Shown here: positions 2,450 through 4,689 of the stretch, piece after piece
Numbering within the stretch: the first letter of the stretch is position 1
Layout of the letters: the number at the start of each line of letters is the position of its first letter
From: Corynebacterium minutissimum
GTDB taxonomy: Bacteria > Actinomycetota > Actinomycetes > Mycobacteriales > Mycobacteriaceae
Assembly (NCBI RefSeq): GCF_000988205.1
Contig: NZ_LAYQ01000010.1
Location: 62,001 to 126,000 of the forward strand
Direction of reading: 5' to 3'
DNA: 64,000 nt
Made by a program: the position numbers and the translations under genes
Notes under the pieces: model-generated
The model's database searches: none
Seen by the model: only the letters and a program-made list of their open reading frames with translations
What the model was told of the DNA's origin: nothing

Positions 2450-2454
2450 AAGAT

Positions 2455-2475
2455 GGCCCCAGCGATGCTGGGGCC
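2455..2475. terminator. Perfect 9-bp hairpin, probable bidirectional terminator
   Basis: GGCCCCAGC (2455-2463) pairs with GCTGGGGCC (2467-2475) around a 3-base loop, six bases after the Abi-like stop. Read on the minus strand it is followed by a T-rich tract (ATCTTTTATTT), so it may also end transcription coming from the sugE side. The plus-strand T tract is weak. Confidence 0.6.
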
Positions 2476-2588
2476 AGAGCCTATTTGCCTTGCGGCTTGA
2501 TATCCAGAAGCCTACTACGCAAGTACACAGGCGTCCACCCACCGATATGATGATTCTTCTTCGTCGTCGTTTCAAACGCCGACGCCTC

Positions 2589-2903
2589 CTAATGCACCAC
2601 CTTCAGGCCCACGATCCCACCAATGATCATGGCGAGAAACAGCACCTTCCACACGGTTGCCGCCTCATGCCCGGCGGCGAAGGAGTAAATGACGGTGACC
2701 ACCGCGCCCACGCCGGCCCACACCGCGTAGGCGGTGCCCACGGGGATGGACTTCATGGCCCAGCCCAACCCGCCCATGGAAATGGCGCAGGCAACGAAAA
2801 AGACCACCGAGGGCCACAGGCGGCTAAAGCCCTCCGACTTATCCAGTGCCGCCGCCCACACAGCCTCGAAGGCACCGGAGAAAATCAACACAAACCACGA
2901 CAT
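2589..2903 (-). CDS. sugE: SugE/Gdx small multidrug resistance protein, guanidinium exporter
   Basis: 104 residues, the usual SMR length, with four membrane segments. The essential glutamate is Glu13 in GAFEAVWAAALDKS, and the family stretch IPVGTAYAVWAGVGAV is at about residues 53-68. The C terminus GGIVGLKVV is also typical. The ATG at 2903 was chosen because the N terminus MSWFVLIFSGAFE matches the family; an upstream in-frame extension would run through the riboswitch. SugE-subfamily SMR proteins export guanidinium by proton exchange. The guanidine-III riboswitch directly upstream supports the Gdx assignment rather than a broad quaternary-ammonium pump. Confidence 0.92.
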   Translation of the reverse strand: MSWFVLIFSGAFEAVWAAALDKSEGFSRLWPSVVFFVACAISMGGLGWAMKSIPVGTAYAVWAGVGAVVTVIYSFAAGHEAATVWKVLFLAMIIGGIVGLKVVH

Positions 2904-2958
2904 GGCCAGCCCTTTCTGGCCGTCTTGTCGCGTCACCGGGTACGGCTCCCTCGTCCGG
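2904..2958 (-). promoter_or_regulatory. Guanidine-III (ykkC-III) riboswitch with ribosome-binding-site hairpin
   Basis: Read on the minus strand from 2958 to 2918, the sequence carries the guanidine-III core in order: CCGGACGAGG, then GCCGTACCCGGT, then GACAAGACGGC. The two CCGG segments can form P1 and GCCGT pairs with ACGGC for P2, giving the known pseudoknot. Directly downstream, GGCCAG and CTGGCC (2921-2904) form a 6-bp hairpin with AAAGGG, the ribosome binding site, in its loop. Its 5' arm overlaps the last P2 bases, so guanidine binding would free translation of sugE. The aptamer match is from memory of the family; the switching mechanism is inferred. Confidence 0.85.
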
Positions 2959-3010
2959 GGCTCGCATGAATCGCGGCGAGCCTGCCCACAATAATGGCAC
3001 ACTGGGCGGC

Positions 3011-3849
3011 ATGAAGATTGCATTCCTTGGTACTGGCCGCATGGGCACCGAGCTCGCCCGACACCTCCTCAAGAACCATGAGCTCACCGTTTGGAACCGC
3101 ACCGCCGAGCGCGCGCAACCGCTGGTCAAGTCCGGCGCTACCCTCGCCGATTCCCCCACCGCCGCCGTAGAAGGCGCAGAGGTCATCATTACCTCGCTCT
3201 TTGGCCCCGATGACATCCGTGAGCAGATCATCGAGACCAACCTCATCCCGGACGGCGTGACCTGGATCGATACCACGACCGTCTCCCCCGATGCTGCCCG
3301 CGAGTTCGCCGCAGCGGTCGACTCTTATGTCCACGCGCCCGTCGTCGGTTCGCTGGGCCCGGCGCGCGAGGCAAGCTCGGCGTTTACGTGGGCACGCCTG
3401 ACGACGACCGCCGCGAGCTCGCCATGACCATCGCCGAGTCCTGGGCCGATGAGAACAAGCTCATCGGTGTGGAGTCCGCCGCCACCGCGGCGATTGGCAA
3501 GCTCCTGGCCAACCTAGCACTTGCCGTTACCGCGGAGGGCGTGCTGGAGGCACTGCACCTCGGCGAGTCTGAGGGCCTCGATTCCGAGGTCATCCTCGAG
3601 ATGCTCGACATCACCGGCCTGGCCTTCATGAAGAACATGAAGGGCCCGTTCATCACCGGCGAGCGCAACACCACTCCGGGCGATTTCACCGTGGATGCCC
3701 TGTGCAAGGACGCCAAGCTCATGGAGATGACCGCCAACAAGCCGCTGCCTGCGGTGGCCGCCGCCATCGAACGCTTTGAGGAGCAGCAGGCCATGGGCCA
3801 CGGCGACCAGGACTTCTCCTCCATCTTCGTCTTCCGCAACAAGGGCTAG
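3011..3849 (+). CDS. NAD(P)-dependent beta-hydroxyacid dehydrogenase-like protein (frameshifted)
   Basis: Starts MKIAFLGTGRMGTELARHLL, the GxGxxG Rossmann motif of the 6-phosphogluconate/3-hydroxyisobutyrate dehydrogenase family. It continues through the substrate loop with a G-S-L-G-P-A block and an all-helical C-terminal domain containing the catalytic lysine region (GKLLANLA). The frame breaks at about 3370: GAGGCAAG should read GAGGGCAAG. With one G restored the gene is 840 bases (279 residues), a normal family length. The substrate is unknown (glyoxylate/succinic-semialdehyde reductase-like enzymes share this fold). It is divergent from sugE. The break is probably a sequence error. Confidence 0.85.
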
Positions 3850-3858
3850 GCCTGAGAG

Positions 3859-4482
3859 CTAGACGCCCCGCTTTCCGACGAGCCCGCGCAGCACCTCCTC
3901 CAGCTGCGCGTTATCCCCCGTGTCCTGGCTGTGAAAGCGCGCTGCAATAAACTCCGCGCGCACGCGGCTATCACTCGCTAGCCGCTCCACATCGAGTTGG
4001 TATCCTGCCGCCGTAGCCAGCGAGTCAAAGAACACCGTCTGCGTTCGGGTATTGCCTTCTCTAAAGCTGTGCACCACATTGAGCTCGCCCCACAGCTCCG
4101 CCAGCTTGGCCACAAACTCATCAATCTCTAGGCCACGCAGAAAGTCATCCTTCGCCAGCCCCGCAAACAGCTTCTCTGCTGCCTTCGTCATTTCCGGCCC
4201 CGCCGGATAGTAGGCATGCCCAGCCTTAATCATGAACTGACCTGTAGGGGCAGTCCGCTCTTCGCCCGCCCATTCATACACATCCTGAAACAGACGTCGA
4301 TGTATGGCCTTGAAATGCGCGTAGTCAAAAGCACCTTCCACAGGTGCCGAGTCCAACTCGGCTATCCGAAGAAATACAAGCTTTTCTTCCAAGATCCGTA
4401 GTTCTTCTGCGTCATCTAACCCCAAGCGATTCTTCAGAACCTTGGTCCCTGGAATGAAATAGCTCTCCCAGCCCCCGCTCAT
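3859..4482 (-). CDS. Fic family toxin (class I, VbhT-like)
   Basis: 207 residues with the Fic core. The catalytic loop is HSFREGNTRTQT near residue 137, preceded by a flap (GQFMIKAGHAYYPAG) and the N-terminal helical Y-I-P-G-T-x-V-L-x-N-x-L start typical of stand-alone Fic toxins. Canonical Fic loops read HxFx(D/E)GNGRxxR; here the second Gly is Thr and the final Arg is Thr. Fic enzymes usually transfer AMP to a hydroxyl side chain. The small antitoxin gene lies 15 bases upstream in the same operon. The gene ends 10 bases from the convergent dehydrogenase. Confidence 0.88.
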   Translation of the reverse strand: MSGGWESYFIPGTKVLKNRLGLDDAEELRILEEKLVFLRIAELDSAPVEGAFDYAHFKAIHRRLFQDVYEWAGEERTAPTGQFMIKAGHAYYPAGPEMTKAAEKLFAGLAKDDFLRGLEIDEFVAKLAELWGELNVVHSFREGNTRTQTVFFDSLATAAGYQLDVERLASDSRVRAEFIAARFHSQDTGDNAQLEEVLRGLVGKRGV

Positions 4483-4497: not shown

Positions 4498-4689
4498 CTA
4501 CTTCAGCGAAGCTCGCCGAACACGAGCGATTGCTTCGTCGGCAGATAATGTCCCTGCAGCCACCTCGCGGCCCAGCTGGCGCACGTACTCATCAGTCACA
4601 TCGTGGCCTGCTAGACGCAACGCAGCATCGCTCAACGCTAACGGATCACGGTCGCTACTACTGCTTTCAATTTGAACAGGCTCCGACAT
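4498..4689 (-). CDS. VbhA-like antitoxin of the Fic toxin
   Basis: 63-residue helical protein immediately upstream of the fic gene. The segment ALRLAGHDVTDEYVRQLGREVAAGTLSADEAIARVRR lies at about residues 23-59 and resembles the VbhA antitoxin domain in layout. In this family an (S/T)xxxE(G/N) motif blocks the ATP site; the aligned position here reads ALRLAG, so the inhibitory Glu seems to be Ala. Assignment rests on position, size and weak similarity. Initiation at the ATG at 4689 gives the expected size. Confidence 0.7.
   Translation of the reverse strand: MSEPVQIESSSSDRDPLALSDAALRLAGHDVTDEYVRQLGREVAAGTLSADEAIARVRRASLK

Follow-up and report, generated by a model that had tools for sequence, protein, structure and literature searches.

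A guanidine-III riboswitch with a proposed two-part OFF hairpin upstream of a Gdx-type exporter gene in Corynebacterium minutissimum

We propose that a guanidine-III aptamer in Corynebacterium minutissimum acts as a translational ON switch with a two-part OFF hairpin and that it controls a candidate Gdx-type guanidinium exporter. We consider this reading probable, and we go no further than that because the modelled ON state is weak; for C. minutissimum itself we infer ligand binding, the direction of switching and the effect on translation. Specifically, when guanidine is absent, the core strand CGCGACA and the P2 bases GGCC would fold onto the leader and the first codons to form a 13-bp two-part hairpin, in which the ribosome-binding site would lie in the loop, the U and G of the AUG would be paired and its A would fall in an internal loop. 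When guanidine is present, the same strand would be kept in the pseudoknot and P2, the hairpin would be blocked and the start region would be freed. All positions given below refer to the window, i.e. the whole 64,000-nt stretch of C. minutissimum contig NZ_LAYQ01000010.1 (62,001-126,000) that was analysed.

The aptamer and its exporter gene

The Rfam covariance model for guanidine-III (RF01763) matches the minus strand at 2985-2915 over model positions 1-67 of 67, with 50.4 bits (E 1.7e-7) against a gathering cut-off of 36 bits, and thus confirms the guanidine-III aptamer that a first-pass annotation had called on this strand. This hit is the sole Rfam match at gathering thresholds across the 64-kb window and the one guanidine-III match reported genome-wide; across the genome, no match was reported to guanidine-I (RF00442), and none to guanidine-II (RF01068) with 150 of 410 candidates scored. 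The annotation had placed the element at 2904-2958, and the aptamer does lie there, but that range starts at the pseudoknot CCGG (2958) and omits an upstream hairpin (2982-2959), the arms of which, GGCUCGC (2982-2976) and GCGAGCC (2965-2959), were identified by the Rfam alignment and folding. The pseudoknot helix P1 (2958-2936) comprises the strands CCGG (2958-2955) and CCGG (2939-2936) and was read off the sequence after the published pseudoknot (PMC5696562), the covariance model not including P1. P2 (2948-2918), as given by the Rfam alignment, pairs GCCGU (2946-2942) with ACGGC (2923-2919) and includes G2948-C2918. In the interval between P1 and P2 lies the core strand CGCGACAAG (2932-2924; alignment and folding), of which 2932-2926 would supply the 5' arm of the outer OFF stem. 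P1, P2 and the conserved core blocks GACGAGG, GUACC and GACAAGAC together make up the H-type pseudoknot.

Downstream of the core, the minus strand reads GGCCAG (2921-2916), the putative ribosome-binding site AAAGGG (2915-2910), CUGGCC (2909-2904) and AUG (2903). The 3' strand of P2 ends at 2918 and the ATG follows 15 nt further on, which is the spacing counted in the annotation; the start of the SMR gene lies 11 nt past the RF01763 match, placing the aptamer in the leader of a guanidine-related gene. A terminator as expression platform was considered and rejected, with 0 terminator-like sites within 2450-3100.

The gene itself (2903-2589, minus strand) encodes a 104-aa Gdx/SugE-type SMR protein with an ATG start and a PF00893 match of 77.1 bits. 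Its closest solved relatives are the Gdx-Clo entries (6wk5, E 2e-22), and in an ungapped alignment with Gdx-Clo the residues E13, W16, S42, Y59 and W62 are all present. Both the central glutamate E13 and W16 of the Gdx subtype are therefore in place; W16 is described as conserved in Gdx, with glycine or alanine in Qac (PMC7695847). This supports the annotation in placing a Gdx-type exporter downstream of the aptamer. Among 21 NCBIfam models SugE scored highest, yet its 103.8 bits miss the equivalog cut-off of 126 bits, and because of this we do not assign the equivalog name. Among named relatives, the protein is closest to those of Corynebacterium sp. HMSC036D02 (99 %) and C. aurimucosum (98 %). 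On the strength of the aptamer, the homology and the Gdx residues, guanidinium is the likely substrate; the annotation had regarded the substrate as fixed, which claims too much, since Gdx-Clo is reported to carry substituted guanidinyl compounds as well (PMC7695847).

Two neighbouring loci may be described here. On the plus strand, a divergent dehydrogenase-like gene occupies 3011-3849; its best NCBIfam match is 3-hydroxyisobutyrate dehydrogenase, below cut-off, and its frame stops after 138 codons in C. minutissimum and at locus L213 and extends over 279 codons in five of the six relatives checked. Because only ~25 bases (2985-3011) lie between the aptamer match and the start of this divergent gene, promoters must adjoin or overlap the aptamer or the divergent gene start; a simple scan of 2985-3011 reported no promoter-like sites. 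At 3862-4482 and 4501-4689 on the minus strand, a Fic-domain gene (PF02661), whose closest NCBIfam model, VbhT, scores below cut-off, stands directly after a 63-aa ORF that has no family match and is possibly an antitoxin.

A predicted two-part hairpin over the start codon

The first-pass annotation had described a 6-bp hairpin that incorporates P2 bases and hides the ribosome-binding site. This hairpin exists (2921-2904, with 2921-2916 paired to 2909-2904), but it is merely the inner half of the proposed 13-bp OFF hairpin (2932-2896), in which folding of the leader and of the local sequence adds an outer stem of CGCGACA (2932-2926) and UGUCGUG (2902-2896) with 7 bp including one G-U pair. For the inner 18-nt hairpin the predicted energy is -10.1 kcal/mol (z -2.46), a value equalled by 2 of 200 dinucleotide shuffles; for the 37-nt hairpin it is -18.6 kcal/mol (z -4.02), equalled by 0 of 200. 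As for the hiding of the ribosome-binding site, AAAGGG is indeed enclosed in the predicted hexaloop but stays unpaired within it, and the paired part is instead the start codon with its flanks, the U and G of the AUG lying in the outer stem and its A in the internal loop. GGCC (2921-2918), the end of P2, also belongs to the inner stem; because this segment and the core CGCGACA are used by both folds, aptamer and hairpin compete for 11 bases. That the two exclude each other, as the annotation had proposed, is thus borne out at the level of the predicted folds, which have the P2 bases in common. Tested by itself, the C. minutissimum leader is marginal, with p 0.093 for the P2 arm against the leader (mononucleotide shuffles) and with 13 core-start pairs, a number matched by 9 % of its leader shuffles.

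Because the folding program does not treat pseudoknots, the ON state was modelled by blocking the pseudoknot bases, and the following values are not a direct comparison of two states. With the upstream hairpin forced, blocking the pseudoknot bases lowers the predicted cost of opening the region from start-12 to +3 from 10.9 kcal/mol (strand free) to 7.4 kcal/mol; with the upstream hairpin not forced, the gain in C. minutissimum is only 1.6 kcal/mol, which is below the mean of 2.8 kcal/mol over 103 leaders. Moreover, the leader refolds in the modelled ON state, in which the probability of being unpaired is 0.03-0.84 for the bases of AAAGGG as opposed to 0.95-1.0 in the OFF loop; within the start codon, G alone gains clearly on going from the OFF to the modelled ON state (0.01 to 0.81), and A and U fall. 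As modelled, folding thus speaks more strongly for exclusion of the OFF hairpin than for an ON state that opens cleanly. The ON direction stated in the annotation agrees with the direction published for the guanidine-III class and would, by analogy, apply here. Because the hairpin is predicted to be very stable, we suggest that the decision is likelier to be made during transcription than by a later equilibrium; P2 is finished ~22 nt ahead of the 3' arm of the hairpin.

Leader complementarity across Actinobacteria

Searches at E 0.001 placed guanidine-III in 262 of the 401 family genomes, 43 of the 242 genus genomes and 51 of the 396 phylum genomes; at this size, such searches use stricter filters and lose weak matches. 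From these, 128 loci were taken, comprising all 43 guanidine-III places of the genus and a portion of the family and phylum hits. A usable gene start was available for 126, L071 and L072 being dropped for want of an adjacent gene, and the starts of L037, L040, L058, L083, L108 and L109 were set by hand. A further 63 loci were kept from 80 SMR loci of named genomes, in which a looser pattern counted 68 with an aptamer, and 2 SMR loci were dropped because there was no start codon at the match. Clustering grouped the leaders by their mutual similarity and not by species tree. The aptamer-free set used for comparison consists of 28 loci, drawn from the 35 genomes in which no aptamer was called; remnants of an aptamer persist at some of these loci.

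Pairing of the P2 arm with the leader was rejected as the sole mechanism: over 69 of the 71 clusters the mean z was -0.85, only 13 of the 69 leaders reached p<0.05, and real leaders differed little from swapped ones (-7.4 vs -6.7, p 0.10). Because this result was weak, we examined the wider leader fold. In a fixed register, defined by the A of the AUG standing opposite the second A of ACAAG, the core GCGACAAGACGGC pairs with the start region at a mean of 0.545, compared with 0.18-0.43 in 20 other registers (68 clustered leaders), and 13 of the 68 leaders score at least 9 of 13, a score reached by at most 2 in any other register. Because the AUG itself adds pairs in this register, the test was then restricted to the bases before the start; contiguous core stems that reach the start and are 4 bp or longer are present in 24 leaders out of 93 (500 permutations gave a mean of 2.4 and a maximum of 7). 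In the opening-cost test, from which leaders longer than 60 nt and repeats were omitted, the difference between the aptamer strand free and blocked was 2.8 kcal/mol vs 0.95 kcal/mol for shuffled leaders (n=103), with shuffle p<0.05 in 25 of the 103. The C. minutissimum core, when grafted, forms 8.7 pairs with aptamer leaders (n=79) and 5.5 with aptamer-free SMR leaders of the genus (n=24, L233, L234, L249 and L250 being omitted from the 28; p 1.4e-4). GUC stands immediately 5' of the start in 35 of 94 aptamer leaders vs 2 of 28 aptamer-free leaders of the genus (p 0.0013), and in 5 of 41 genes of a Kocuria plasmid. Finally, at least eight core-start pairs were counted in 58 of 90 leaders, where 43.0 were expected, with 32 of the 90 falling below eight. 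Across the class, the complementarity of leader and start to the core strand is above chance.

A joint test for covariation gave no lineage-specific signal: swapping whole leaders between lineages yields 218.0 contiguous pairs vs 216 observed (92 leaders), and the core is near-invariant and so leaves little room for covariation. Two single positions lie above random dealing, which equalled them in 46 and in 1 of 1000 deals, relatedness being uncontrolled in this comparison. Single compensated stems occur as GACGGCC/GGCCGUC in L002, as GACUG/CAGUC in L068, L070 and L178, and as GACUUGCC/GGCAAGUC in L169; in L075, L076, L082 and L104 the apparent partner of the P2 strand is the Shine-Dalgarno itself. 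The three tests last cited with 93, 92 and 90 leaders all draw on the same 94 clustered leaders. Codon-2 bias was discarded as support, because Ser UCG (17/30 vs 199/574 in the remaining genes, p 0.013) agrees with the stem and Ala GCA (22/51 vs 92/1319 in the remaining genes) does not, and neither was used.

These comparisons suggest a more general scheme, for and against which we regard the case as evenly balanced: in Actinobacterial guanidine-III switches, GCGACAAGACGGC, which runs from the core into P2, would be the antisense of the start context GCCGUC-AUG-UCG-U and would serve as a common expression platform. The two sequences are complementary with one mismatch, at the A of the start codon, and one G-U pair.

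Several guanidine-III aptamers in the sample precede other genes. At L003, L010, L024, L025, L029 and L030 the gene encodes 382-388 aa, and the product at L010 is an arginase-family protein (PF00491), which we presume may be a guanidine hydrolase. At L065, L083 and L104 the aptamer lies before another small membrane protein (in L104 a small multi-drug export protein, PF06695), and in L065 and L104 the P2 strand is complementary to the Shine-Dalgarno. At L210 (19960-20070), on the mobilizable Kocuria rosea plasmid NZ_CP127860.1, an SMR gene has a guanidine-III-like leader that ends in GGCUGUC-AUG.

Natural losses, rival readings and known systems

Of the 242 genus genomes, 78 have an SMR relative (E 1e-12 or better), among them all 43 with an aptamer. 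Four loci with closely related exporters, L213 (protein 99 %), L214 (98 %), L216 (93 %) and L217 (91 %), have in alignment a net leader deletion of 34-35 nt (35 nt in L213 and 34 nt in the other three), which spans from inside the aptamer to near the gene and leaves the exporter frame open. It takes out the 5' strand of P2, the second P1 strand, the core, the 3' strand of P2 and the larger part of the native ribosome site, along with both 5' arms of the hairpin, and the junction carries GAGGGAGG or GAGGAAGG, a longer purine-rich stretch resembling a Shine-Dalgarno. In a tree of the neighbouring gene and the exporter the four do not form one clade; therefore, either the deletion arose more than once or was passed between lineages, or different histories are combined in the tree. 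The natural reading of these alleles is that the exporter is probably no longer switched, and we do not claim constant expression because the short leaders are still predicted to be partly paired. The other aptamer-free loci of the genus hold aptamer remnants or nothing recognisable, and an Rfam scan covering 20 of 32 such loci gave no guanidine-III match at its cut-off. In the sample, the exporter is broken or shortened at L040 (matching residues 1-58 only) and at L037 (residues 42-104 only), the aptamer start is fused to the gene interior at L249, and L250 combines a decayed aptamer with an exporter matching residues 1-55.

Three other readings of the C. minutissimum leader were weighed against these data. 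The inner 6-bp hairpin alone might be the OFF structure, with the outer stem over the start codon being fortuitous; it is the part common to P2, it is above chance by itself, and the AUG and the following Ser or Trp codons are fixed by the protein and give some outer-stem pairs free. However, z moves from -2.46 to -4.02 once the outer stem is included, other leaders pair with the core strand even where the inner stem differs or is absent, and the bases 5' of the start show complementarity too, and we consider this reading unlikely. We find it improbable, too, that the aptamer is mainly a guanidine-stabilised roadblock that shields the mRNA from RNase E scanning, with the hairpin in a minor role. 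A review (PMC12186494), with reference to Richards and Belasco 2021, reports RNase E protection for guanidine-III; such protection would need no platform, but it leaves unexplained why leader complementarity is above chance and why it is lower in aptamer-free SMR leaders; roadblock and hairpin may also act together.

It is, in our judgement, very unlikely that the start region pairs only because the sequence is GC-rich and the start context fixed, and that the switch is inactive or different here. The joint test without lineage-specific covariation (216 observed vs 218.0), the many shuffled leaders that also reach at least eight pairs (43.0 of 90 expected vs 58 observed), the P2-arm comparison with swapped leaders (p 0.10) and the decay or loss of aptamers and exporter genes in parts of the genus would all agree with this explanation, whereas the permutation and register tests and the contrast in GUC before the start (35/94 vs 2/28) argue against it, as does the C. 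minutissimum locus, in which aptamer and gene are both intact. We therefore retain the translational ON switch with the two-part OFF hairpin as the preferred reading.

The class, the ON direction and translational control are already published, and the C. minutissimum switch is an ordinary member of a class that is common in the group. It resembles the Thermobifida fusca riboswitch (5NWQ; PMC5696562) in the full-length model match, the conserved blocks, the association with an SMR exporter and the proximity to the ribosome site. For that riboswitch, Huang et al. 2017 describe ligand-induced folding as probably exposing the ribosome site 16 nt downstream, i.e. an ON direction, and refer to a region able to form secondary structure (PMC5696562); the available sections of the paper name no pairing for the ribosome-site region, whereas we propose a specific hairpin between core strand and start codon for C. 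minutissimum. A 2025 review likewise reports translational control for guanidine-III, in addition to protection against RNase E scanning (PMC12186494), and emrE and speB are reported as genes associated with the class (PMC2864571). The guanidine-II ON switch (PMC9561414) shares ligand and direction, and its free RNA is described as hiding the start region via a P0 helix that sequesters the ribosome site, but its aptamer is different. Pairing between core strand and start codon was not found in the available portions of the guanidine-III literature searched; it may be drawn in Sherlock and Breaker 2017 or in Richards and Belasco 2021, which lie outside this scope.

What the present analysis adds is a corrected anatomy of the OFF state together with signs that it is shared across Actinobacteria. 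For guanidine-III the crystal structure is known and the route from folding to the ribosome is described, in the available sections, in general terms only (PMC5696562); a concrete competing pairing that recurs in many Actinobacteria makes this step testable, and the deletion alleles allow leaders that have and lack the switch to be readily compared before nearly the same exporter. If the common platform is true, the conservation of GCGACAAGACGGC and of the GUC before the start would partly reflect gene control in addition to ligand binding, and the start codon would be a competitor of the ligand.
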